Below, in pieces: positions 19,382 through 45,653 of a stretch of 64,000 bases of DNA. A program made the translations under genes and the position numbers. Within the stretch, counting starts at the first letter, position 1; each line of letters begins with the position of its first letter. Origin of the DNA: Solidesulfovibrio magneticus RS-1 (GTDB lineage Bacteria > Desulfobacterota > Desulfovibrionia > Desulfovibrionales > Desulfovibrionaceae); the NCBI RefSeq assembly GCF_000010665.1, contig NC_012796.1, forward strand, positions 3,253,501 to 3,317,500, read 5' to 3'. A model generated the notes under the pieces. The model ran no database searches. It was not told where the DNA came from and saw only the letters and a list, made by a program, of their open reading frames with translations.

Positions 19382-19478
<97 letters not shown>

Positions 19479-20180: not shown

Positions 20181-22190
20181 ATGAAAAGAATCACAATAAA
20201 GGCCATGCTAGTCACTTTCGCCTTCACCGCTTCTACTTCACTAGTTATGTCACTATTGTTATTCTTGAATTACGAACACAAAACATCTCAAGAATTTGAC
20301 CGAATCATTAATCTTGAAAACAAGCACAGCATATTCCTTCACGAATCGTGGGCAAACGGCCTCCAGACAGAGCAAGCCATCAGAAACATAATCTTCAACC
20401 CGAAAGATCAAAAAGCAGCTGAAAATTATAAAAATGCTGACTCTTATTTTACAAAAGCAATTACATCTCTCATCGACATAAGCAAAGGCGATCAAACAAA
20501 TATTTACAAAGAGCTTTCAGCAAAATGGAGCAAAATCGCGCTGACAAAGAGTGAAATTATAAAGCTAGCGACAGAAAACAAGCAAAGCGACGCCATAGCC
20601 ATCCTTAACAGCACCGAAACGCCTCAGTGGAGAGACATAAAGGCAATCATACTCAAACAAATAGACTTACAAAACGAGGTCTTTAAAAAAGCACTTGAGA
20701 ACAACAAAAAAACAAATGAGTCGAGCAAAATAATTTTCATATCTATCGTCGCATTTATGCTTATATTTGTAGTCATAGCATCAGTAGTCATAACAAAATC
20801 AATCAACTCACCACTAAAAAGCTTAGGATTATTTTCAAACAAAATTGCATCTGGCGATTATGGTGCAGTTATTGATGACAACTTTTGCCCTGAATTTGAA
20901 TCACTAAAGAAAAAAACGCTAGAAATGACAAACAAACCAAAGGAAAGCCTAGGATTTTCTCAGAGTGTAATGCAAGGATATCGCCAGCCATTTTTAACAA
21001 TAGACCTAGATGGACGAATTACATCCGTAAACAACGCGGCCCTTTTGATGCTTGAGTCGGACTTACCCGCCGAGGCGTACATTGGGAAAAAAGCCGGTTA
21101 TTTATTTTACAAAGACGAATCGAGAGAAACAAACATACAAAAACTTATCAAGTCAACAAACTGGAGTTCGACAGAAGATGTTTCGCTAACAACACAGAAA
21201 AACAACAAATTGAGTGTCAAAGCTGACAGATGTCAACTTAAAGATCTTGATGGAAATGTAACAGGAGGAATAGCCACCTACACAGATTTAACGGATATCA
21301 AGTGTAGTGAAAGTCAGGCCATTCTACAATCCGAAGATATGCGCCGCGCCGCTACAGAAACGGAAAACATCGCTTCGGGTCTTTTCGAAGCAGTCGAAAG
21401 TCTTTCTAATCAGATCAATATTGCTGCTGACGGCGCGACTACACAGCGAGAGCGTTCTGAAACAACATCACTTGCAATGGATGAATTGAAAAACATCATT
21501 TCTCAAGTCACTGATCAAGCTGACATAGCTGCAAAGAATGCTAATATTGCTCAAGAAAAAGCGCTTGAAGGATCAAACATCGTAAAACAATCAGTTGAAG
21601 CTATACATGAAGTTTCATTAACAGCGGCACGACTCAGCGAAAACATGCAATCACTGGAAGCGCATTCAAAATCAATCGGAGAAATAATTGGAGTTATCTC
21701 CGACATAGCTGATCAAACAAATCTTTTGGCGTTAAACGCTGCAATTGAAGCCGCCAGAGCTGGTGATTCAGGGCGGGGGTTCGCTGTTGTTGCGGATGAA
21801 GTTCGGAAGTTAGCAGAAAAGACCACACACGCTACTCTTGAAGTAGAAAATACTATCCGAGCCATACAAGAATCAACCAAACTCAACATAAGTCAAATGA
21901 ACAATGCAATTAAAATTATAGATGGCGCAACCGATCTCGCGAACAAATCTGGAAATTCTTTAAGTGAAATCGTGAGCATCGCAGAAACTACTGCAACTGG
22001 GTCACAAAATATTGTTGAAGCATCGCGAGAACAATATGTAAACGCTGAAAAAATTGCACAATTAGCGAATGAGGTTCGTATTACTGCAGACGAAACAGAC
22101 CAAGGATTACACCAAGCGTCTAGTGCCGTAGAACAACTCACTGAAATGGCTAGGGCTTTAAAAAACCTGGTTGACAAGCTCAGTCGGTAA
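20181..22190 (+). CDS. Methyl-accepting chemotaxis protein with PAS domain
   Basis: A 669-residue receptor. TM1 is at about 8-30, a helical periplasmic sensor of about 150 residues follows, and TM2 is at about 185-207. Then come HAMP, a PAS-like module (about 265-375, [22 protein letters not shown]) and the MCP signalling domain with [19 protein letters not shown] and [16 protein letters not shown]. Codon use is AT-rich, unlike the GC-rich MCPs at 3.6 and 11.6 kb. CheX and CheY genes follow on the same strand, so receptor and adaptation or signal-termination parts may work together. Confidence 0.92.
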
Positions 22191-22447
22191 ACAAATCATA
22201 GCGTTTTGGCGTTAGCATTAAAAGCTATATACAGGCTTAACATTCTGGATAACCTAAGCGGACTGTCCAACGAATACTTTTCAAAGCTTGTTTTCAGCAT
22301 CCATCCCATGGCCAAAATCAACAGTTGTTGAGAAGTGTGGACATCGGCGTAGTATATCCCAATAGAAAAAACTACGTTTGCGCCATGCGGCTCGCGAGAC
22401 CGATTATAAAACATGCACAATTATAACCATTGCGAGGTTATATTAAA

Positions 22448-22924
22448 ATGCACGAAGACTATATTACACTGGCGAAACCCTTTATACAAGCTACTCAACA
22501 CGTAATCTCAACAATGGCTTTCGTTCAAGCAACTCCTGGCAAGCCATACGTCAAAAAAGGATTAACTGCTCCTGGCGATGTATCAGCAATTATAGGGTTC
22601 ACTGGAGATAGAAATGGAACGATGGCACTATCATTCACTAAAAAATGTGCCATTTTCATTTTAAAAAATATGCTAGGCGACGATATTCAAGACATCGTCC
22701 AGGACATCAAAGAAACTGTCGGTGAACTCACTAACATGATATCAGGTCAATCAAGAGCAAACTTATCTCAAATGGGGATTAATTTACAAGCGTCTATCCC
22801 TACCATTATCTTAGGAGACAACCACACTATTGAACACATGAAACAATGCACAATAGTCACAACCCCATTTAATACTTCAAGTGGTGATTTTTTTGTTGAA
22901 TTTTCGCTGGAACAACTCGCTTAA
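22448..22924 (+). CDS. CheX/CheC-like chemotaxis phosphatase
   Basis: A 158-residue protein of the CheC/CheX/FliY fold. The signature helix is KETVGELTNMISGQSR, with the conserved Glu and Asn that act in CheY-phosphate hydrolysis in CheX. IIGFTGDRNGTMALSF is the preceding strand region. ATG 22448 has GAGGT nine bases upstream; a TTG six codons earlier is less likely. The CheY-like gene lies 55 bp downstream, a natural substrate pair, and an MCP lies upstream. Confidence 0.85.
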   Translation: MHEDYITLAKPFIQATQHVISTMAFVQATPGKPYVKKGLTAPGDVSAIIGFTGDRNGTMALSFTKKCAIFILKNMLGDDIQDIVQDIKETVGELTNMISGQSRANLSQMGINLQASIPTIILGDNHTIEHMKQCTIVTTPFNTSSGDFFVEFSLEQLA

Positions 22925-22979
22925 TCTACAACACAGCTACACGTACTTACCAAAGCCACACACAGGGACTTTGTAAAAA

Positions 22980-23372
22980 ATGAAAATAGGCGACATCAAG
23001 ATCTTAGTCGTGGACGATTTTTCGACTATGCGAAAAATTATCAAATCAATGTTAAGGAGAGTTGGAATTAAATCCATTGATGACGCTGAAGATGGAAAAA
23101 TTGCACTAAGTTATTTAAAATCAAAACCGTATAATCTTATCATTTTAGACTGGAACATGCCAAACATGTCGGGGCTAGACCTTTTAAGATCGATCAAAAG
23201 CGATGAAACACTAAAAAATGTACCTGTACTAATGGTCACATCTGAAGCAAAAGAATCTCAAGTCATAATAGCTGTTCAAGCTGGCGCATCAAGCTACATC
23301 GTAAAACCATTCACAGAAGCAACACTTATAAAAAAACTTTGCACTATTCTTAAAATAGAAGTTCAAACTTAG
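22980..23372 (+). CDS. CheY-like single-domain response regulator
   Basis: A 130-residue receiver domain with nothing attached. The acidic pair is in ILVVDDFSTMRK, the phospho-acceptor Asp in LIILDWNMPNMSG, the Thr/Ser switch in VLMVTSEAKE and the Lys in YIVKPF. DDFSTMRKII and WNMPNMSGLDLL are close to true CheY proteins, so it probably binds the flagellar switch or acts as a phosphate sink. AGGGA precedes the ATG. No CheA, CheW, CheR or CheB lies nearby. Confidence 0.9.
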   Translation: MKIGDIKILVVDDFSTMRKIIKSMLRRVGIKSIDDAEDGKIALSYLKSKPYNLIILDWNMPNMSGLDLLRSIKSDETLKNVPVLMVTSEAKESQVIIAVQAGASSYIVKPFTEATLIKKLCTILKIEVQT

Positions 23373-25351: not shown

Positions 25352-26128
25352 TTAGGTGTTTTCCTCCGCACCGGCAACGAGGTTTTTGAGCGCCGCTTCC
25401 TCTCGGGAGCTTCGATAGCTCCTTCCTTCAAGGATGACTTTGTACGCCCCGTGTCTGATCCGGTCCAAGGTCGCCGCTCCGAGCAGTTTGTTGTTGAAGG
25501 CCTCCCCCCATTCGGAGAAGTCCAGATTGCTGGTGATAACCGTAGCAAAGCGCTCGTAACGCTCGGCGATCAGGTCGTGAAAGTCTTCATCCTCCGAGGA
25601 CTTAAAGGGTTTCAATCCAAAGTCGTCAATGATGAGTACGTCCGTTTTGGCCAGGGCGGACAGTTTCCTATCGTAGGAATTGGTCGCTTTAGCCGCTTGG
25701 AGCATCCCCAGGAGCTTGCTGACAGGCGTAAACAGCACCTCGTACCCTTTTCGGGCGGCTGCATGACCAAGGGCCTGGGCGATATGGCTTTTGCCGGTGC
25801 CGCAGGGGCCGACGATGAGCACCGGTGCCTTTTCCTCAAGGAAGCGACAGGTGGCCAAGTCCAGGACGAGCGCCTTGTTGATGGACGGATTGTAGCTAAA
25901 GTCGAAGCTTTCCAATGTTTTTTCACTGCGAAAGCCGGCCCGGCGTACGCGCAACGAGAACTTTTTCTGTTCGCGGCGAGCCACCTCGTCCTGGATCAGC
26001 ATGGCCAGAAACTCCACGTGAGACAGACCATCCTCGATGGCTTGCTTATTGCGTATTTCCATGGAGTCCAAGATTCCGGAAAGGCGCAACTGCTTGAGTG
26101 CCGGCTCGAGCGCTGGCATAGGGTTCAT
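25352..26128 (-). CDS. istB: IS21-family transposition helper ATPase
   Basis: A 258-residue AAA+ ATPase of the IstB/DnaC type: Walker A GPCGTGKSH, Walker B VLIIDDFGL, sensor TSNLDFSEWGEAF and the C-terminal arginine region LDRIRHGAY. It assists IstA in target selection. The ATG at 26128 is preceded by AAGGAGGAGATC and is chosen for that reason; another ATG at 26146 overlaps the istA stop (ATGA). The protein has normal length and no visible break. Confidence 0.93.
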   Translation of the reverse strand: MNPMPALEPALKQLRLSGILDSMEIRNKQAIEDGLSHVEFLAMLIQDEVARREQKKFSLRVRRAGFRSEKTLESFDFSYNPSINKALVLDLATCRFLEEKAPVLIVGPCGTGKSHIAQALGHAAARKGYEVLFTPVSKLLGMLQAAKATNSYDRKLSALAKTDVLIIDDFGLKPFKSSEDEDFHDLIAERYERFATVITSNLDFSEWGEAFNNKLLGAATLDRIRHGAYKVILEGRSYRSSREEAALKNLVAGAEENT

Positions 26129-26142
26129 GATCTCCTCCTTTG

Positions 26143-27678
26143 TCATTGAAGAATTCCTCTTAATTCTCGGCAATACTTCGATTTTCCTTTGTATATTTCT
26201 TTCACCTCCTCATGGAAAACAGGGCGAGGCAAAACATCAAGGCCTTTCTCCAGGATCCGTTTGACGGTGTTATAGTGGGGGGCGTGATGATCCAACGCTC
26301 GACGGCAAGCTGCTTCCAGACGTTTGGCCCCGTACTTCTTTTTAAACGTCAATGTGGCCTGAGCTGCCCGCAGATTGTCCAGCACCTTATGGGCAAACAA
26401 AGCGTCAATGAATTCCCGGCAGGCAATGCCAACCTTTTCTGACTGCCTTAGGCACCACTGCGGATCGTGCATATTGTAAGCTTGAGCCTCAGGCGGCAAA
26501 TGCTCTTGCACGGTTGACTTGCTCCCCGGGCGAGACAGGCGAGGATGGATGGCAACCAACTCGTTGTCATAAAAGATCTGTACGGTCTTTTCCGTGGCGC
26601 GCAGCCAAAGGAATTGGTGGACCAATCGATATGGTGCGGAGTAGTAGCAACGCCGAAATTCGACATGACAGTTTCCGTGCAACTTTACCTTGCCCCAAAT
26701 AGCCAGTTCAGTCGGGACATCGGGCAGAGATCGCAAGACATGCTTCTCTGTTTCGACGAACATCGCTAAGGGCTGTTCCTTGGTGGTGCCATGGTTACGG
26801 TTGCCCGCCGTGCTCATGACCCAGTCCAGCAGCTGGTCATTGGCGTCCCGTAAGCTGCGGAAGTCGCGTAACGGCATGAAGTTGTTCTTGATATATTTAA
26901 CGCCAGCCTCCACCCGGCCTTTTTTCTGGGGATCACGCGGCGGACAAGGCGACACCAGGAATCCGTAACTCTCTGCAAATTCGGCATAAGAACGCTGTAC
27001 CACGGGGTCATGGTAGCAGGCCTTGGTGATGGCGCACTTGGGATTGTCGATGATGACCCTGGCCGGGACGCCGCCGAAAAACTCAAACGCTCTACGGTGG
27101 CACCCAAGCCAGGTCTCGATTTTCTGGTCGCGCACGATCTCCGCATACTGATGCCGGCTCCAAGCCAGCGTCATCACGAAGAAATGGGTCTTGATAACTT
27201 CGCCTGTGAAAGCGTCAGTAATCTCCGGTCCGGCACCAAAATCCACCTGCACCGCGTCGCCCGGGGCAAAATCCAGCATCACCGTGGCCGCCGGAGTGAC
27301 CTCTTTGATCTTGGCAATGAAGCGCCTGACACTTGAATACGCACCCGTGAAACCGTGCTTGCGAATCAGGGCTTGGTGGATCGTGCAGCCGGCAACGCCC
27401 TGCTTGACCCAGTCCCGGACGTCGTCTTGGAAGGGGATGATACTGGAAGTGGATGGCTGCTTCGATGCCCGGCCAGGAAAAAACGAAGCAAGGTCCGCGT
27501 CAGCGGGCACGGACGCCGCTGGATTGAGCCATCCTTGCGATTCGGCTGTCTCACGGACGTGGGCGAGTTTTCTGCGCCCCATCAGGCCGGTCTTTGCGAT
27601 CTGCCTGTCGGACTCGCCAAGGCGCATCCGGACAAGGGCTTGACGATACTCGTACATCTCGAACCTCCGATTAGACAT
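26143..27678 (-). CDS. istA: IS21-family transposase
   Basis: A 511-residue transposase. The N-terminal helix-turn-helix region begins YEYRQALVRMRLGESDRQIAK. The rve integrase core has the DDE residues in AVQVDFGAG, VIIDNPK and KKGRVEAGVKYIK. The C-terminal domain has CYYSAPYRLV. It cuts and joins the ends of the element. It overlaps istB at its 3' end, the usual IS21 arrangement. No frameshift is visible. Confidence 0.94.
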   Translation of the reverse strand: MSNRRFEMYEYRQALVRMRLGESDRQIAKTGLMGRRKLAHVRETAESQGWLNPAASVPADADLASFFPGRASKQPSTSSIIPFQDDVRDWVKQGVAGCTIHQALIRKHGFTGAYSSVRRFIAKIKEVTPAATVMLDFAPGDAVQVDFGAGPEITDAFTGEVIKTHFFVMTLAWSRHQYAEIVRDQKIETWLGCHRRAFEFFGGVPARVIIDNPKCAITKACYHDPVVQRSYAEFAESYGFLVSPCPPRDPQKKGRVEAGVKYIKNNFMPLRDFRSLRDANDQLLDWVMSTAGNRNHGTTKEQPLAMFVETEKHVLRSLPDVPTELAIWGKVKLHGNCHVEFRRCYYSAPYRLVHQFLWLRATEKTVQIFYDNELVAIHPRLSRPGSKSTVQEHLPPEAQAYNMHDPQWCLRQSEKVGIACREFIDALFAHKVLDNLRAAQATLTFKKKYGAKRLEAACRRALDHHAPHYNTVKRILEKGLDVLPRPVFHEEVKEIYKGKSKYCRELRGILQ

Positions 27679-31484: not shown

Positions 31485-32561
31485 TTACCATTCAGGATCT
31501 ATAGTTGTCACTCCAAACAGTGCTACATTATTTTTACCAGTTCCTTTGACGTCATACATGGCTTTGTCCGCACAATTTAAAAGATCATCGGACGACATCC
31601 CAACTTGATATTCAGCAACACCAATAGATACTGTAAACCGAATGGAATTTTCCGCTAGCTTTCCATTAAGCCGTGGCCTAAATTCATAATTTTGAACTGC
31701 CAAGCGTATTGCGTCAGAGTGTAGCAAGGCTTCGTCAACAGAAACATTACATACAACAACTAGTTCATCTCCACCATATCGCGCAGCAAACCATCCAAAC
31801 TTTTCGGAATGCGCACTTATAATTTTAGCCAAAGTCCTCAAGACATCATCACCAACCTGATGCCCATGTGCATCATTTACCTGTTTAAAGTTGTCAATAT
31901 CGAGCATCAAAAGAGCAAGGGAATTATTGTCTGTCTGATTTTGCTGGATAGCACTCTTTAGGTATGATTCTAGATATCTGCGATTATGAAGTGGCGCAAG
32001 GAGCGGATCAACATTAACAGTTTGCTCAAGAAGCCGAGCTTTTCTTTCCCACTCATTAGCCTTTTCCCTGTAATGCATTAACATGTTTTTCAGCAAACCT
32101 TTCAGCCTAGGCCTTAGAGCGTCCAAGTCTTCAGAATCCGAAAGTATTTCCAAGGTATCACGACCAAACGTATTTATCAATTTTCCACGTTCTTTTTCTG
32201 ACATCAATGATTCATCAAGGAACTCATTGACAACTGATGCCAAAGAAGACGTGATCTTCTTTTGCGACTCAAGCTTTTCTTCAGCCGAGACCGTCACCTG
32301 ATTGTTTGCTATAAAACCTTCAAGGTCATTAACAATCTGCTCAAAATGTTGAGGCGATGGATCTTTTTTCGACAACCTCTCAAACACATTTCGTTGCATT
32401 GCGGATTTCTGTTCATCAGTAAAAATTGAAAAGTTTGCAACCAAGTTCCTGACAAACAGGACAACAGCAAGCCATGACGGTTTACTTCCACATCCAATCC
32501 TATGCATTTCGGAGCATAATTTTTTAATCGCGCACGAGTCACTTGGACAGTTATTCGACAT
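31485..32561 (-). CDS. GGDEF-domain diguanylate cyclase
   Basis: A 358-residue soluble protein. The N-terminal helical region of about 185 residues carries Cys7-type residues near the start (PSDSCAIKKLC). A GGDEF domain follows, with LDIDNFKQVNDAHGHQVGDD and the active-site loop YGGDEL. The Asp of GHQVGD is kept, as in c-di-GMP synthases. The RxxD inhibitory site is absent in front of the loop. AGGAAGGAT precedes the ATG. It lies 230 bp downstream of the heme MCP on the same strand and could share its transcript, which would put a c-di-GMP producer under a cyclic-dinucleotide riboswitch. Confidence 0.9.
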   Translation of the reverse strand: MSNNCPSDSCAIKKLCSEMHRIGCGSKPSWLAVVLFVRNLVANFSIFTDEQKSAMQRNVFERLSKKDPSPQHFEQIVNDLEGFIANNQVTVSAEEKLESQKKITSSLASVVNEFLDESLMSEKERGKLINTFGRDTLEILSDSEDLDALRPRLKGLLKNMLMHYREKANEWERKARLLEQTVNVDPLLAPLHNRRYLESYLKSAIQQNQTDNNSLALLMLDIDNFKQVNDAHGHQVGDDVLRTLAKIISAHSEKFGWFAARYGGDELVVVCNVSVDEALLHSDAIRLAVQNYEFRPRLNGKLAENSIRFTVSIGVAEYQVGMSSDDLLNCADKAMYDVKGTGKNNVALFGVTTIDPEW

Positions 32562-32791: not shown

Positions 32792-34837
32792 CTAACAACC
32801 CAGAGCTTTGAGTTTATCATTACACGCTCCTCCTCGCAATTTCTCAATTAGTCGAGCCAAGACTTGAGATTGTTCTGACAGAGCAGCCACTGAACGAGAA
32901 GAGTGCTGCATGGTTTCACTCATCTCTGTTGAAATCGTTTCGATATGCGAAATTGATCGACTAATTTCGTCGCTAGAGGCAGACTGCTGTTCAGCTGCTA
33001 TAGCGATTGAGCGCACTTGATCTGAAGTGGCGTTAACCATGGCGACAATCTCATCAAGGGCCTTACCAGAGCGGTCGGCAAGGGCCGTGGCCTGGGCAAT
33101 TTTCTCTACCGCGACGTTGACATGCCCCACATTGTTTTTAGCAACCTCTTGGACGCCGTAGATGGCCTGAGCCACTTCCTTGGTGGTGATCATCGTTTTC
33201 TCGGCAAGCTTGCGCACCTCATCAGCGACTACAGCAAAGCCACGACCAGCATCGCCAGCTCTAGCGGCCTCAATCGCTGCATTGAGTGCCAATAAGTTGG
33301 TCTGGTCTGCAATGTCGGAAATAACTTCTAAAACGCGACCAATCTCTTCAGCTTTCTTGCCGAGCACAGTCATATCTGCCTTTAGTTCTCCGGCTTGGCG
33401 TTCTACCTCAGTGATGCTATTTACTACATGAGCGACAACTTCACCGCCTTCCTTCGCTTTTATGCGCGCTTGATCTGAAGTCGTGGCCGCATTGGATGCA
33501 TTTTTGGCTACCTCCAGCACAGCGGTATTCATCTCTGTCATCGACGTTGCTGTTTCAGACACGTGACGGGCTTGTGATTGTGCTCCGTGGCTGGCATGGT
33601 CGATTTGTTCGTTAAGTTCTTCAGACGCACCGTTAACCACGTCCGCGACGTGAGCGGTCTCCTCAGCTATGCGAAGAAGTGTTTGCTGTTGTTCTAGCAT
33701 GAGTTGTTTTGCACTTTCGTCTGCCGTCATGTCGATCATAATGCCGATAACTCCAGCGACATTACCATTGGCGTCAAAAAGTGGAGAAATAGAGTAGTTT
33801 AACGGCACATCCTGACGGCCTGGACGGGTGATAACTAGCCTGCCTGTCAATGGCCTACGCTCGGCCACTACAGTAGAAGTTATGGTTTCTCGTTCTTCAC
33901 CATAAAAAGCGGTAGCCACATTAATAGTTCCAATTCGAGATTGATCGAGCATTAATATGTCAGAAAGAACTTTATTGCAGTAATTAATTATGTTTTTTGT
34001 GTCGCAAGTAAAAAAAGGAACAGATATCCCATCTAGAACACTTTTTTGATACTGAATTTGATCTTTAATAACCCCCACAGTGGCCGACAAGTTTGCAGCC
34101 AACCGTGCCAGTTCGTCATTTCCACTCACTTGAAAAACAGCACTAAAATCACCTGATCCAACCGCATCACTCGCCCTCGCAAGAACACCTACCTTCTTAA
34201 TTACAGATTGCTTCATAAATAAAATCAAACAGCCAAGTAGGCCCGTCATTGAAGCAAGCGAAATAATAGCAGTATAAACTTTAAAATCGTTCACGGAATC
34301 AAAGCTAGTTGTAACATCTTGAGTCATAATTGTAGCACCCAAAATAGGTGCGCTCTTCCCATGGCAGTGATAACAAGACGGCTCATTCATAATGCTTTTA
34401 GCCTCAAAAAATATCGGCTTCTCTCCAACATGAAGAACCGCTGTTTCAACCCCTTTTTTTTCAAGAACTTTAGAGATTATTGCATCCGCACCTCCAGAAG
34501 CATAAACTTCGCGGATATTTTTACGAATTTGTGAGTCAATTGTGCTGTAAGTAATTATTCCACGAAAGTCGCTCACTGACATGTTAACTCTCTTGAATTC
34601 ATGGGCTATATCCTTGAACTTTTGCTTGGTCATCTCATCGTTACCTTCAGCCATAGGCGTCATCATAGCTAACCGCGCCATCCGTTCCAAGCGCGAACAG
34701 GCTAAAGTCATTTCAGCAATAACCCCATTTTCTTGAAGCCTTGCAGAAACAAAAAACAGACTTATAAAAAATATGGTTGCGAGAAAACTCATCAAGACGA
34801 CTATCTTGGCATTAAGGGATCTTTTTAAAAAATTCAT
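32792..34837 (-). CDS. MCP with periplasmic heme-c sensor (DcrA-like)
   Basis: A 681-residue receptor. TM1 is at about 11-32. The periplasmic DUF3365/Tll0287-like domain contains a covalent heme motif CYHCH (Cys155-His159). TM2 is at about 187-207, then come HAMP, a PAS module (about 265-375) and the MCP domain with [19 protein letters not shown]. DcrA of Desulfovibrio vulgaris is the known precedent for a heme-c MCP that senses oxygen or redox state. AGGAGGG precedes the ATG. The tetraheme cytochrome gene ends only 22 bp upstream, so the two are cotranscribed and may interact in the periplasm. Confidence 0.92.
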
Positions 34838-34859: not shown

Positions 34860-35318
34860 TTAATGAGCGCCAGCGTATTTGAGAGGTTTAAATCCAAAGG
34901 ATCTAACCCGCTCTTCATTGTGGCAAACTTTGCAACTCTCTAAAGTTGGATTGCGGACAATTAATTTAGCATCTCCTCCCGAGTTGACGTGGGAAGAGCC
35001 GGGGCCATGGCAGACTTCGCAGCCTGAATTAGCTAGCTCTGGAGTCTTTTCAATCGAAACAAACCCCCCAGGCCTCCCGTATCCTGTAGTATGGCAGCCG
35101 TAGCACTCGACAAGCTCTAGAGGGGTAAGTTTATCTGCCAATATTTTAATACTTTTGTATGAACTTGCTTTTTTTGCATAACTATTGTAAGATTTAAATT
35201 GATCGGAATGACATTCGCCACAAGCCTTAGAACCAACAAAAATAGCCTCCTCTGCGAGGACTATCCCTGGAAAAAATAGGGATAACGCAGCCAATGCACT
35301 TAGAATAACATTCTGCAT
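34860..35318 (-). CDS. Periplasmic tetraheme cytochrome c (c554-like)
   Basis: A 152-residue protein with a Sec signal peptide (cleavage near Ala22) and four CxxCH heme sites: CGECH (33-37), CYGCH (72-76), CEVCH (100-104) and CKVCH (129-133). The spacing and CHGPGSSH resemble the cytochrome c554/multiheme family. It is probably a periplasmic electron carrier, or the redox partner of the heme MCP encoded next. GGAGGAGAG precedes the ATG. A riboswitch-like leader with a terminator lies in the 240 bp upstream. Confidence 0.92.
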   Translation of the reverse strand: MQNVILSALAALSLFFPGIVLAEEAIFVGSKACGECHSDQFKSYNSYAKKASSYKSIKILADKLTPLELVECYGCHTTGYGRPGGFVSIEKTPELANSGCEVCHGPGSSHVNSGGDAKLIVRNPTLESCKVCHNEERVRSFGFKPLKYAGAH

Positions 35319-35429
35319 TGATCTCTCCTCCGTTATCGAACCATGATTATGACTTAGGATTGTCCATCAAAGATCATCAAACATACACAACAATATGAAA
35401 ACGATATCATTTAAAGAAGCTAATTATTG

Positions 35430-35483
35430 AAAACAAAAACGCCATGATCCAATGACTAGCTAACCAGTCGAGGAGTCATGGCG
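35430..35483 (-). terminator. Intrinsic terminator, probable riboswitch expression platform
   Basis: On the minus strand CGCCATGA (35483-35476) pairs with TCATGGCG (35447-35440), followed by TTTTTGTTTT. A nested GACT/AGTC pair lies inside. The 5' arm begins directly at the 3' edge of the riboswitch-like aptamer, so the two folds can compete. It lies 112 bp before the cytochrome ATG. Confidence 0.75.
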
Positions 35484-35553
35484 GCTCGGCTGCCTCAACC
35501 GTGAGGCCCGTGGCTTTCCGTACGCACCCGCCTCACGACGGGGTTGGCTTTAC
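35484..35553 (-). promoter_or_regulatory. Candidate GEMM-I (c-di-GMP-I class) riboswitch aptamer
   Basis: Read on the minus strand from 35553, the elements follow the GEMM-I order. GTAAAGCCAACC comes first, then hairpin P2 (CCCGTC, GNRA loop GTGA, GGCGGG; 35542-35527). ACGGAAAGCCACGGGCCT follows, close to the consensus ACGCAAAGCCACGGGCCT. Then comes hairpin P3 (GCCTCA, CGGT, TGAGGC; 35507-35492) and AGCCGAGCC. Deviations are about five extra bases after P2 and a C-to-G change. By my alignment the ligand-contact base before GC in the first motif is A rather than G, a change seen in cGAMP-type relatives. The alignment is from memory. Confidence 0.6.
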
Positions 35554-35747
35554 AGACTTGTTTCAACGCTTGCATATCACCTTTGACAAACTTTTTCCAC
35601 CAAATACACACAGAACTGGCACTGAAAACCTCTCAAGCCACTGGGTGCTCACAAGGCGAAGCCACTCCGTGATCATCGTGGAGCCACCCAGGGGCACTCA
35701 TCCGGACCAATGCGCTAGGCATGTCCAAAATCGAAACGGAGACAGCA

Positions 35748-36226: not shown

Positions 36227-36485
36227 TGGCCGACTGGGACATGCCGCCACATCTTGAGAGCAGTTACCCCCAGCCCGAGGACGTCGAAAATGGTAAATGA
36301 CGCATGGAGCGAGAACAGAACAGGGACCAGATTCACTGCCGAATCGGAGCCGTCCATGGGTGGCAACCATTTTCGCTGCCCTCTTCGCCCCCGGGGAACG
36401 CTGCTGAGTGATCCACAACCTGGAGCCAAGCTACACCCACCCAGATAATTTTTGTTCAGTTCTTCAGAACAATAGGACAATTTCG

Positions 36486-37040
36486 ATGCAAACCATGCCT
36501 GCCATGACCGCTTTACTTGCTGCTCACGCTTTTCATGATGATACAATACCGACTTTTGAACGGGTTACAGCTACTCAGATCCCATCATCTTGGACCAAAC
36601 TTCTTTGCGGAACATCAAGCATGACCATAGCATTATCAAAATGTTACGGCGAAGAAGTTGCTCTCACCCTACTCGGTGACGATATACTAGTCCCTGAAAA
36701 AATTTTAGACCGCGCTGTCGTTTTATCTGGTAGGCAGACTAAAAAACCATTTGCACTCGCTGGCCTCCGCATTCATTTAGAACGCTTCGCGCCACATGTT
36801 CGAGTTCGTTTTGTAGAAGCAGTCATCCCTTTCGGAAAAATACTACAAGAGGAAGGAATATCATTCACCTCGGAGCCTGCATGTTTCTTTCAGACATCAT
36901 CCAACGCTCTACTCTCTCGAGAACTAAAAATTTCTGAAGGAATAACGCTGTTCGGTCGAATGAACGACATCAAAAGCAACGAACGCATTCAAATTGCCGA
37001 AGTTGTTGAAATCTTAGTAGAGCCTCAATGCTTTGAGTAG
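36486..37040 (+). CDS. Chorismate lyase (UbiC)-like protein
   Basis: A 184-residue protein. Its central block LLCGTSSMTIALSKCYGEEV, the stretch DRAVVLSGR..FALAGLRIHLER, the motif FVEAVIPFGKI and the C-terminal IAEVVEILVEP follow the pattern of the UbiC/DUF98 chorismate lyase fold (GTSSMT, R-E strand, FARSVIP, final Glu). That family removes pyruvate from chorismate to give 4-hydroxybenzoate. The similarity is moderate and based on motif order. ATG 36486 has AGGA upstream. Neighbours are a pseudogene and a hybrid kinase, so the context does not explain it. Confidence 0.5.
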   Translation: MQTMPAMTALLAAHAFHDDTIPTFERVTATQIPSSWTKLLCGTSSMTIALSKCYGEEVALTLLGDDILVPEKILDRAVVLSGRQTKKPFALAGLRIHLERFAPHVRVRFVEAVIPFGKILQEEGISFTSEPACFFQTSSNALLSRELKISEGITLFGRMNDIKSNERIQIAEVVEILVEPQCFE

Positions 37041-41148: not shown

Positions 41149-42183
41149 CTATTGGTTTTCTGCTTGAATACGAAAGATATCAGGCAGAAGTGAAAAAAAT
41201 AAATCCAAGATATTTGGGTCGAAATGTCGCTCCCGGCCTTCCAGCATAATGTCTAAGACTTGTTCGCGAGACAAGGCTGGGCGATAGATACGGTCGTTGG
41301 CCAGGGCATCGAAAACGTCCACTATGCTTACAATCCGCGCGCTTACAGGAATGGCCGTTCCAATCAATCCGCCAGGATAGCCACTACCATCCCACTTCTC
41401 GTGATGTCGCAAGGAGATATCATGGGCCATACTGATAACCTCAAACTGCGAGCCAGCAAGGATACTTGCTCCTATAACAGTATGTTCCTTAATGATCTCG
41501 TATTCTTCAGACGTGAGTCGGCCGGGTTTTTTGAGAATATCGTCTGGGATTCCTGCCTTGCCGATGTCATGCATTGATGCTGCGACTCGAAGATCATCAA
41601 GGCTGGTGGAGTCCCATCCTAAATGATTTCCTAACAGGGCACTCGTCAACCCAATGCGACGTACATGAGAGCCAGTTTCCTGGTCGCGAAATTCCAGGGC
41701 AGAAAGTAGACGTTCAATAAGTTCGTCTTTGGTCTTCCTTAGGAGTTGCGTTTGGCGCTGAACAACACCTTCTAGGGACCTGCTATATTCCTGATGCTCT
41801 CGTTCGAATCGGACAATTCGTTCACCAACATTTATTCTTACTTGAAGTTCTTCAAAAGAAAAAGGCTTGACAATGTAGTCGTCCACGCCTCCGTCAGTAA
41901 AGCCGTCTACTAGATCCTCAGTCTCTGATTTGCTTGTCAACAATATTATGTATGTATAATTATTGTTTTTGGCTTGACGCACCCTCTTTGCTAGCTCAAT
42001 GCCATCAAGATTTGGCATCATCCAGTCAGTAATCAGCAATTCTGGAGGGTCTTCGTATGAGAAAAATTTATCAATTGCAGAAAGTCCATCGCAACACGTT
42101 TCAACTGTATGCCCATTCTTTTGTAAATACCTGCACAACCTTGCTCGCATTATGGGGTCATCATCGGCGGTTAGTATGCGCAT
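41149..42183 (-). CDS. Response regulator with HD-GYP phosphodiesterase domain
   Basis: A 344-residue protein. The receiver (about 1-125) has TADDDPIMR, the phospho-acceptor Asp in LLITDWMMPNLDG and VKPF. A coiled linker and an HD-GYP domain follow, with SMHDIGKAGIPD, HTVIGA, HHEKWDGSGYPGG and DVFDALANDRIYR. HD-GYP enzymes break down c-di-GMP to GMP; all metal ligands appear present. AGGAAAA precedes the ATG. It heads the operon with the binding protein (36 bp) and the hybrid kinase, so phosphotransfer from that kinase is the expected control. Confidence 0.93.
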   Translation of the reverse strand: MRILTADDDPIMRARLCRYLQKNGHTVETCCDGLSAIDKFFSYEDPPELLITDWMMPNLDGIELAKRVRQAKNNNYTYIILLTSKSETEDLVDGFTDGGVDDYIVKPFSFEELQVRINVGERIVRFEREHQEYSRSLEGVVQRQTQLLRKTKDELIERLLSALEFRDQETGSHVRRIGLTSALLGNHLGWDSTSLDDLRVAASMHDIGKAGIPDDILKKPGRLTSEEYEIIKEHTVIGASILAGSQFEVISMAHDISLRHHEKWDGSGYPGGLIGTAIPVSARIVSIVDVFDALANDRIYRPALSREQVLDIMLEGRERHFDPNILDLFFSLLPDIFRIQAENQ

Positions 42184-42705: not shown

Positions 42706-45267
42706 TTATGAACTGCGTCTTTTCAAGGAATTCAACGGCCATCTGTCTGGATAATCCGTCTCCTGTTTTGCATTGATTGACGTTACAGTTTGATTCCTTC
42801 CATGTCTTTTCGCTTTATATAAAAAATTATCTGCTGATTTTAACAAACAGTCTATTGCTTTTGTATGTTTTGAGCAAGCTGCAACGCCACTGCTAATTGT
42901 AATATTGATTGGAATTTCGTCGTATTCAAAGATAGTTGATTCAACAATTGTTCTAAATCTTTCAACTGCTGCTGCTGCATTTTCAAGAGATGTTTCAGGC
43001 ATTGATATGGCAAACTCTTCGCCGCCTAAGCGTCCAATTATATCTGAAGATCGGAATTCTGCTGTTGCTAATGTGCAAATTTTTTTTAAAACCATATCCC
43101 CTGCAGAATGTCCCCATGTATCATTTACCATCTTAAAATTATCAATGTCAAAAATTGCTACAGAAAATTCAGTATTATAGCGAGTTGCTGAAGATAATAA
43201 CGCTCCAGAAATCTCCATAAAATGGTGTCTATTGCTGACACCCGTCAAGCCATCCTTTGTTGCAAGCATTAAAAGATTTAATTCTAAGTTTTTTTGTTCA
43301 GATATATCAGTAATCATAATGAAAGCACCTCCAGAAGAATTATCTAATCGAGATATTGGAGAGCTTGAAAACAAAACCCAAAAACATTCGCCATCTTTAT
43401 TTCTAATCCTACACTCTAGTTTGGGTATGGACCGTTCAGTTGCATTGATAATTGTTCTTGAAAAAGATTCTTCGCCACAAGACAAAAAAATGCTATCAAT
43501 ATGTAACTCGTGAAGCTCTTTTTCGCTATAGCCTGCTAACTTCTGGATTATTTTATTTGAATAAGTAATTTCAAAATACTGATTAACAGCAACGATGCCC
43601 TGGTTTGATGTTTCGACTATGAGTCGAAACTTTTCTTCACTTTCTTTTAGTTCATTTTCTGCGCGCTTTCTGTCAGTAATGTCTGAAACGAAACCTTCGT
43701 AGCTGTTGATATTCCCGAATTTATCTCTCACTGAGCGCATAAACAAAGATACCCATGCGATAGTTCCGTCTTTCCTTTTTCTTCGCTGCTCAAGCCCATA
43801 CAGGCAACAGTTTTTAAGTTGATCTGTCGTTTGCGTTCTTTCAGATTCATTGACATAAATATCGGATTCAATAGAACTAACGCGGTTTATTAAGTCCTCT
43901 GCGGAATCATATCCGTATATTCTTGCCAAGCTCGGATTTGCAGCAAGATATTTTCCATTTGGTGTTGACTCAAAAATGCCTATGGGAGAATTTTCGATCA
44001 AATTTTTGTATTTATTTTTAAGTTTTTGGAGACTAGTTTCAATTTGCTTTCTTTCTGTAATGTCAACCATTACTGACAAGTAGAACTTCTGGCCTTGGGA
44101 CTCTATTATTTCTCCGTAAAAAATTCCTTCATGAACATTGCCGTCCTTGTCATATATTTGCGCTTCGCTGTTTTTAATTTGTCCGTCTTTTGAAAGTATT
44201 TTTAATAAGTCACAATACTTGTCATGGCTTGTGAATAAATTTAATTCATCAGAGGTCTTTCCAATAACTTCGTCTCTTTGATATCTAGTTATCTCGACAA
44301 ATGCATTGTTTACATCTATCAGTTTCATGCTAGGCATAATTGACAAAGCCATAGGCGCTGGATTGCTATTGAATAAACGCTCGAATCTTTGCAAAGCTTC
44401 TTGTTCTAGTGTTAAGTCGCGTGATATTCCAAAAATACAATCTTGACCTTTCCACCTGCCTTTCCATATTCTTGTTTCTGCGGGCAGTGCGGAACCATCT
44501 TTTTTCAACAAGGAAAGAGGGCAAGTTTCTCTTTTCCCCTTTAGCATGTCAGCAAAGATAGTCACTGCTTCATGCCTGACGTTTTCTGGATGAATATCGA
44601 TGACGTTCATGTTTAGTATGTCTTGCAGCGAAAATCCTAAAATTTCTTGTACAGAGTGGTTTACCTGAACTATTTTGCCGTCATTACTAACAACCCAGGC
44701 TATGTCATTGATTGATTCAAAAAAGCTTCTAAAACTGTCCTCGCTCTCTCCAAGAGCAATTTCTGCCTTTTTTTGATCCGTTACGTCAAATAGCACCCAA
44801 ACGACTCCTCGCCCTATGTCCATTGCATCAAGAGCACTGCCCGAAATCTTAACCCAAACAACTTCTCCACATTTTCTTTTTAATGGCCACTCTGTTGAAA
44901 CGATACGTTGTTTTGCTGTGGCACTCCAGTAACGCTCTCCAAATTTTAAAAACGAATCACTATTTACATGCAACATTTCAACGGAGTTCCCAATTAGGTC
45001 ATTCTTGTCATATCCTAGCATTTCGAGTAGGCCAGAGTTTACATCAGTTATGACGCGATGCTTTGTAACAACAAGAATTCCGAATGCAGGAACGTTAAAG
45101 ATACCATTTTTCCAAGAAATGCTGTTAATTATATGACACTGCGCTCCCAAAAAATTTATCTCAGCGTCACTAAAAGAAGCGCGTTTAGATTCAAGTTCGA
45201 CTACTCGTCTTCGTGCGACACTCAACTCTTCTTCTATCTCGGAATACGTTAAATTCACATCTTGCAT
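42706..45267 (-). CDS. Multi-PAS diguanylate cyclase
   Basis: An 853-residue protein with about five PAS domains in series (for example FGILVVTKHRVITDVNSG, IAWVVSNDGKIVQVNHSV, GIFESTPNGKYLAANPSL and GIVAVNQYFEITYSNKI) and a C-terminal GGDEF domain. The active-site loop is GRLGGEEF, with an RSSD inhibitory site five residues in front, so it should make c-di-GMP and be product-inhibited. WGHSAGD keeps the selectivity Asp. No membrane helix is seen from this start. ATG 45267 is chosen; the frame to 45387 adds a hydrophobic stretch that could be a membrane anchor, so the longer start is possible. Confidence 0.88.
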   Translation of the reverse strand: MQDVNLTYSEIEEELSVARRRVVELESKRASFSDAEINFLGAQCHIINSISWKNGIFNVPAFGILVVTKHRVITDVNSGLLEMLGYDKNDLIGNSVEMLHVNSDSFLKFGERYWSATAKQRIVSTEWPLKRKCGEVVWVKISGSALDAMDIGRGVVWVLFDVTDQKKAEIALGESEDSFRSFFESINDIAWVVSNDGKIVQVNHSVQEILGFSLQDILNMNVIDIHPENVRHEAVTIFADMLKGKRETCPLSLLKKDGSALPAETRIWKGRWKGQDCIFGISRDLTLEQEALQRFERLFNSNPAPMALSIMPSMKLIDVNNAFVEITRYQRDEVIGKTSDELNLFTSHDKYCDLLKILSKDGQIKNSEAQIYDKDGNVHEGIFYGEIIESQGQKFYLSVMVDITERKQIETSLQKLKNKYKNLIENSPIGIFESTPNGKYLAANPSLARIYGYDSAEDLINRVSSIESDIYVNESERTQTTDQLKNCCLYGLEQRRKRKDGTIAWVSLFMRSVRDKFGNINSYEGFVSDITDRKRAENELKESEEKFRLIVETSNQGIVAVNQYFEITYSNKIIQKLAGYSEKELHELHIDSIFLSCGEESFSRTIINATERSIPKLECRIRNKDGECFWVLFSSSPISRLDNSSGGAFIMITDISEQKNLELNLLMLATKDGLTGVSNRHHFMEISGALLSSATRYNTEFSVAIFDIDNFKMVNDTWGHSAGDMVLKKICTLATAEFRSSDIIGRLGGEEFAISMPETSLENAAAAVERFRTIVESTIFEYDEIPINITISSGVAACSKHTKAIDCLLKSADNFLYKAKRHGRNQTVTSINAKQETDYPDRWPLNSLKRRSS

Positions 45268-45653
45268 GCTGGAGCCTATTAGTGCGTATTGGTTTTGGTG
45301 TTGAGACAATAATATAAAGGTCGCAGCCAACAGCTTTCCTGATTTGTCTAACAATGCAAAAAAAATGAGATAAAGCAGTAGATGCAATCAAAGTACTTTA
45401 AAAAACACGCATGCAATAGACTTTATCCATCTAAAATCATGTCCTCACTTTCATTCAACGGCAAATAACCCGAAGTAAGTAAACATCAATGCCACTTACT
45501 AGGACAAATAATCAAATCATGGGTAGGCATCTTTCAAAAATATGAACTATACTGTACATCGCATCAGTTGTCAAACAGCACCGAAAATTGACCCCCAATC
45601 AGCGTCCAATTTTGACCCCCTCGAATTGAGCGCCATGGCTTCTCCTCGTGGTT

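Follow-up and report, generated by a model that had tools for sequence, protein, structure and literature searches.

A predicted c-di-GMP-I riboswitch ahead of a cytochrome and heme-chemoreceptor operon in Solidesulfovibrio magneticus RS-1

A structured leader RNA precedes a gene pair for a tetraheme cytochrome and a heme-type methyl-accepting chemotaxis protein (MCP) in Solidesulfovibrio magneticus RS-1, which raises the question of what this RNA senses and in which direction it controls the genes behind it. We analysed a stretch of 64,000 nucleotides around the locus (the window; NC_012796.1, positions 3,253,501 to 3,317,500), and coordinates are window positions unless a locus or contig is named. 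Our preferred reading, to which we give a probability of roughly 0.77, is a c-di-GMP-I (GEMM-I) riboswitch acting as a transcriptional ON switch before the cytochrome/heme-MCP operon. The features of the locus are as follows:

31485-32561, minus strand: GGDEF protein gene, after a 230-nt gap behind the MCP gene (Pfam GGDEF, E 9e-37; Asp at the Hypr position)
32792-34837, minus strand: MCP, 681 aa, with one CxxCH at residue 155, HAMP and PAS (Pfam MCPsignal, E 4e-46)
34860-35318, minus strand: tetraheme c-type cytochrome, 152 aa, with four CxxCH (33, 72, 100, 129) (Pfam Cytochrome_C554, E 1e-18)
35430-35483, minus strand: intrinsic terminator, stem 35483-35440, U-rich run 35439-35430 (dG -22.8 kcal/mol)
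35474-35558, minus strand: c-di-GMP-I (GEMM-I) aptamer with P1 (RF01051, RF03167 and R2 scores)
35481, minus strand: equivalent of C92, also within the terminator 5' arm (C in 71/71 family RNAs)
35484-35514, minus strand: P3 hairpin (10 pairs; 96.4% of cells paired in an 11-sequence alignment)
35517, minus strand: equivalent of A47 (A in 71/71 family RNAs)
35522-35525, minus strand: 4-nt insertion 3' of P2, adjoining the changed C25/U42 (alignment)
35527-35542, minus strand: P2 hairpin with a GUGA (GNRA) loop (sequence and Rfam alignment)
35548, minus strand: equivalent of G20, the ligand selectivity position (G in 69/71 family RNAs)
35553-35558, minus strand: P1 5' strand, six pairs with 35480-35479 and 35477-35474, one bulge

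An initial annotation had proposed a GEMM-I-like riboswitch from two minus-strand hairpins embedded in GCCAACC, ACGGAAAGCCACGGGCCT and AGCCGAGCC, and had named an RF01051 search as the check. In the Rfam scan of the window RF01051 (c-di-GMP-I, GEMM-I) matched 35558-35477 on the minus strand with 36.7 bits, just above its gathering score of 35 (E = 0.0016 when the window was scanned with all Rfam models and 3.1e-5 in the genome search). A leave-out covariance model, R2, was built from nine relatives, excluding the window RNA, its orthologue in the related genome G005 and the near-duplicate L045; it found the window RNA at 73.9 bits (E 2e-16), with a runner-up in the window of 17.5 bits. The GEMM-I element is real and the proposal stands, as do the motifs and both hairpins: the one at 35542-35527, said to carry a GNRA loop, is P2, and the second is P3. 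The G005 RNA scored 76.1 bits with R2 and 28.4 bits with RF01051, so that a probable genuine member from this lineage falls below the Rfam cut-off. The model for c-di-GMP-I-GGC (RF03167) gave the window RNA a higher score than RF01051 did (44.4 bits), presumably from its short P3 shape, but this lies under that family's own gathering score of 59.

Like the c-di-GMP-I riboswitch Vc2 (RF01051), the window RNA has a two-hairpin aptamer with a GNRA loop on P2, G20, A47, C44, C92 and the conserved P3 core. The P2 and P3 helices and pairs 21-46 (as C-G) and 22-45 are all present; 18/18 core pairs are standard, one being U-G, and P1 adjoins the ligand site. It differs from Vc2 in having C21-G46 instead of G-C, C25/U42 instead of A25/G42, the 4-nt insert and a short P3. 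For comparison we aligned 71 RNAs of the bacterial family (76 places matched by RF01051, minus four unfetched at 22.0-23.4 bits and minus one in genome G026 at 24.6 bits). RNAalifold on this alignment gave 18 pairs, with at least one compensatory change in 15. Across the 71 RNAs, the P1 strands of one molecule pair at a mean of -7.9 kcal/mol and mismatched strands at -5.9 kcal/mol, with none of 2000 re-pairings as good, kinship among the RNAs being ignored in this count.

We applied Vc2 numbering to the window RNA, and G20, A47 and C92 are what we take to be the ligand contacts in the Vc2 structure. The Rfam alignment and the 71-sequence alignment agree on the register, in which G20 is 35548, C21 is 35547, C22 is 35546, C44 is 35520, G45-G46 are 35519-35518, A47 is 35517 and C92 is 35481. 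Since the pairs C21-G46 and C22-G45 fix this register, position 20 is G35548, and the A that had been read at the presumed selectivity position is withdrawn. A C-to-G change had also been noted; position 35518 is indeed G46, but it is no deviation, because C21 opposite it keeps the pair, and C-G is the form found in 66 of the 71 RNAs (G-C in four; C-A in one, L055, where either the alignment is wrong or one base was lost at 43-46). The earlier doubt, that a variant ligand or decay might be involved, was partly based on the wrong register, and with G20, A47 and C92 canonical and C46G compensated by G21C it finds no support. A variant ligand by way of A20, U20/U92 or G47 was dropped because positions 20, 47 and 92 are all canonical: the consensus line of RF03167 has G at 47 and that of RF03168 has U at 20 and 92, and the window RNA, with A35517 at position 47, is unlike both there. 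Two family RNAs have A at position 20 (L030 1501-1575, plus strand; L094 4650-4727, minus strand). In another genome of the order, G311, four GEMM-I aptamers stand in tandem (L157 5924-6275, minus strand); two match RF03168 (c-di-GMP-I-UAU) best and two RF03167, with one of each above cut-off.

A at position 20 is the mark of cGAMP riboswitches (GEMM-Ib), and the window RNA has G35548 in its place. Furthermore, the genome gave 53 GGDEF matches at E up to 1e-15, and every one carries Asp at the Hypr position, 48 as read by script within the domain and five by eye. Hypr cGAMP cyclases have Ser at this signature position (PMC6456294, in excerpt), a supporting, not strictly defining, companion of cGAMP riboswitches, and none was seen among the 53 matches examined. 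Because the three contact residues are intact and all 53 GGDEF matches are without Ser, c-di-GMP is the likely ligand, as predicted from sequence. Recognition of cGAMP, alone or alongside c-di-GMP as in Geobacter, appears quite unlikely to us. A cytochrome as target resembles the targets of GEMM-Ib RNAs (PMC6456294, in excerpt), and the lower P2 is altered in the window RNA, a place where changes are reported to shift selectivity, with position 20 said to influence selectivity without acting as an absolute filter (PMC9262584, in excerpt). Against this stand G20 and the GGDEF proteins, although another source of cGAMP is possible. The analogy with Geobacter that had been drawn for the cytochrome target is not needed, as the nearest relatives belong to the Desulfovibrionaceae and the 53 GGDEF matches include no Hypr type.

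The direction of control is predicted from the terminator. It had been placed at 35483-35430 with its 5' arm abutting the aptamer, and it is found there, with an arm that runs into the aptamer: the stem pairs 35483-35476 with 35447-35440 and is followed by UUUUUGUUUU, and C92 together with some bases of the P1 3' strand falls inside the 5' arm. Because the arm takes up these bases, only one of aptamer and terminator can form at a time, and from this exclusion we predict a transcriptional ON switch; overlap of the terminator with the P1 and ligand-binding strand is a feature expected of ON riboswitches. A terminator 5' arm containing C92 was found by a fixed rule in seven of the 71 family RNAs, among them the window RNA and its G005 orthologue. 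Folding the leader without constraints gives the terminator (-53.1 kcal/mol), enforcing core and P1 removes it (-36.2 kcal/mol), and enforcing the core alone leaves it in place (-48.7 kcal/mol). For a transcript lacking the final 8 nt of the 3' arm, the values are -32.7 kcal/mol for the core with P1, -33.9 for the core without it and -39.5 for the free RNA. At that point P1 costs 1.2 kcal/mol relative to the same core without P1, so the ligand could settle the outcome while the terminator is still unfinished. A simple terminator scan, restricted to loops of 3-8 nt, missed this terminator and listed sites at chance level, and a promoter search returned two sites where 1.8 were expected by chance, none distinguishable from chance.

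According to the proposed mechanism, RNA without ligand would pair C92 and part of the P1 3' strand with 35447-35440, so forming the terminator and keeping the operon off. Binding of c-di-GMP at G20, A47 and C92 would close P1 and occupy the terminator 5' arm, and RNA polymerase would then read into the genes for the tetraheme cytochrome and the heme-MCP. A comparable ON switch with mutually exclusive aptamer and terminator is described for Geobacter pilM (PMC9262584, in excerpt). The pilM and GSU1761 RNAs (GEMM-Ib, cGAMP) share this layout with the window RNA, and some GEMM-Ib RNAs control multiheme cytochromes; the window RNA differs from them in G20, in a genome where no Hypr-type GGDEF was seen among the matches examined, and in a target that includes a chemoreceptor. 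As the terminator arm contains C92, the layout makes the locus a ready test piece.

Folding also bears on whether the aptamer works at all. Calculated with tertiary contacts ignored, the optimal unconstrained fold of the aptamer stretch reaches -31.2 kcal/mol and the core-enforced fold -25.6, and since the competing fold is better by 5.6 kcal/mol, the window RNA may bind weakly. The competing hairpin pairs UCUGUA with UACGGA and uses inserted bases. As a trait of the twelve subgroup RNAs described below it was dropped, since their own value (-2.8) did not exceed that of shuffled sequences (-3.2), 899 of 1000 shuffles being at least as good. It is very unlikely that the aptamer is decayed or trapped in a misfold, with the terminator left as a constant attenuator; such a state would fit the competing fold, the RF01051 score near cut-off and the lower G+C of the region compared with its flanks, whereas the contact residues, the compensated 21-46 pair, the standard core pairs and P1 have all been kept, and the relative G005 keeps the same parts. 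Finally, an OFF switch in which ligand helps termination, as in Cd1, we consider highly improbable: GEMM-I aptamers act both ways (PMC9262584, in excerpt), but here C92 and some of the P1 3' strand lie within the terminator 5' arm itself, the unconstrained RNA adopts the terminator, and none of the folds computed for the leader RNA contained an antiterminator.

Within its bacterial family, the aptamer itself is ordinary. Its real oddity is the altered base of P2, a feature partly common to 11 other RNAs: 12 of the 71, the window RNA included, have C25 with U42 or C42 (C25/Y42) in place of A25/G42, and six of these 12 have one to four extra bases before position 43. The extra bases after P2 previously put at about five are confirmed as four, 35525-35522. 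Mutations in the lower P2 are reported to affect affinity and the selectivity between c-di-GMP and cGAMP (PMC9262584, in excerpt), and so the altered lower P2 could matter for affinity. When 11 subgroup RNAs were used to train a model and 288 genomes of the family were searched with it, all 12 came among the top 15 places, the training set making up 11 of them; run over 297 genomes of the class, it also matched RNAs from further families of the order, those inspected by letter being ordinary A25/G42 RNAs.

The 11 other C25/Y42 RNAs stand mostly beside chemotaxis genes. Matches to MCP, CheV or CheX lie within 2.5 kb of 7/12 C25/Y42 RNAs and of 6/59 others (Fisher p 0.0007), and six ordinary A25/G42 RNAs likewise have CheX and MCP genes behind them. 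Two subgroup RNAs, L002 and L001, were scored as misses owing to short loci; L002 precedes the heme-MCP, and L001 precedes an ORF that is MCP-like by eye and by likeness to L043, which would bring the count to 9/12. We treat the association as a lead, not a result, because the idea came from the same data, several of the RNAs are orthologues (L001, L043-L045) and many flanks are only 1.5 kb long. That the C25/Y42 RNAs form a separate GEMM-I subtype, in which the rebuilt P2 base tunes or shifts cyclic-dinucleotide recognition and which is used for chemosensory genes (CheV, MCPs, and the heme-MCP with its own cytochrome), is a conjecture that we regard as unlikely.

The genome (5,315,620 bases in three contigs, the window's contig having 5,248,049) was searched with RF01051 at E up to 10 and yielded one further RNA, C2:4339540-4339624 in G000 (L169 5541-5625, minus strand). 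It belongs to the C25/U42 subgroup as well and lies 19 nt before an MCP-like ORF; by the rule used it has no terminator, and translational control is possible. A GEMM-I form with a shorter P2 was also encountered (L046, L059, L060, L158-L160). Matches of like length and score to this form recur in many genomes of one genus, their sequences having been partly inspected, and an HMA-type metal ATPase was seen by eye downstream of L046 and L060.

The gene pair behind the aptamer is an unusual target. The position of the RNA ahead of a cytochrome gene and a heme-MCP gene, already part of the initial annotation, is borne out by the Pfam matches and CxxCH motifs, and the MCP gene starts 22 nt after the cytochrome gene. 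DcrA of Desulfovibrio vulgaris is a c-type heme chemoreceptor. DcrA and GSU0935/GSU0582 of Geobacter, likewise c-type heme chemoreceptors, share with the window MCP a CxxCH in the N-terminal sensor region, the likeness to DcrA being one of description only; the window MCP differs in its additional PAS domain and in the cytochrome gene ahead of it. A sequence search with MCP residues 1-216 (E up to 1) returned no solved structure. The likely output is redox or oxygen taxis, and we infer a probable redox-taxis operon. The GGDEF gene at 31485-32561 is probably outside it. A feedback loop through this gene was considered and dropped, since it lies 230 nt behind the MCP gene, has paralogues elsewhere and had no match in the relative's locus. 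Its three paralogues (L232, L233, L234; about 76% DNA identity) lie no more than about 165 kb away from it, at 3.395, 3.428 and 3.450 Mb, and no other operon part was matched in their 8-kb surroundings. The GGDEF query found no match in 13.5 kb of the related locus L056, and the operon no near match in a plasmid collection.

Of 149 family genomes sampled, 93 encode relatives of the cytochrome (E up to 1e-12). Among the best 30 loci of a longer list (L063-L092), an MCP match lies beside the cytochrome in 21, namely the window, G005 and 19 with 28.7-36.0% identity, and in nine there is none. A GEMM-I motif ahead of the cytochrome, sought in these 30 loci with one regular expression over about 1.5 kb upstream, was found only in the window and in G005. 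The MCP has its only close relative among 288 family genomes in G005 as well (63% identity over residues 1-372), the others among the matches listed having 39% identity or less. In G005, RNA and terminator are followed by a CheW-REC (CheV-like) gene and then by cytochrome and MCP. The sole close relative of the operon found in the 288 genomes thus also has the RNA and terminator, with the cheV-like gene first, and the gene order recurs in one relative of another genus. The nearest named relative of the operon is a MAG of the Desulfovibrionaceae.

The surroundings of the operon differ in composition from the rest of the window. Between 20000 and 52000 the G+C content is 39-53% per 4 kb, compared with 63-68% in the flanks, and the low-G+C stretch starts just after a tRNA-Ser gene (19382-19476); it resembles a genomic island with many signalling genes. 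MCP, CheX-like and CheY-like ORFs follow in a row directly behind the tRNA-Ser gene (20181-23372, by eye), and an IS21-like pair at 25352-27678 consists of an integrase-type transposase (Pfam) and an IstB-like partner (by eye). The stretch further holds an HD-domain response regulator (41149-42183), a GGDEF protein (42706-45387) and, divergent from the operon, an ORF of 210 aa (36408-37040, plus strand) for which neither Pfam nor NCBIfam gave a match at E 0.001.

A 2013 regulon survey covers GEMM and Desulfovibrio magneticus, and its supplements may list the site (PMC3766115, in excerpt); in the partial texts returned by our literature search, no paper dealt with the window RNA or with riboswitches before cheV or heme-MCP genes. 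The locus would tie c-di-GMP, by way of an RNA, to the synthesis of a heme chemoreceptor and of the cytochrome encoded beside it, within a lineage of sulfate reducers. If this is true, the messenger would set which receptors are made and not just how they signal, and if the C25/Y42 RNAs were indeed a subtype of their own, its level would decide which chemoreceptors the cell builds.
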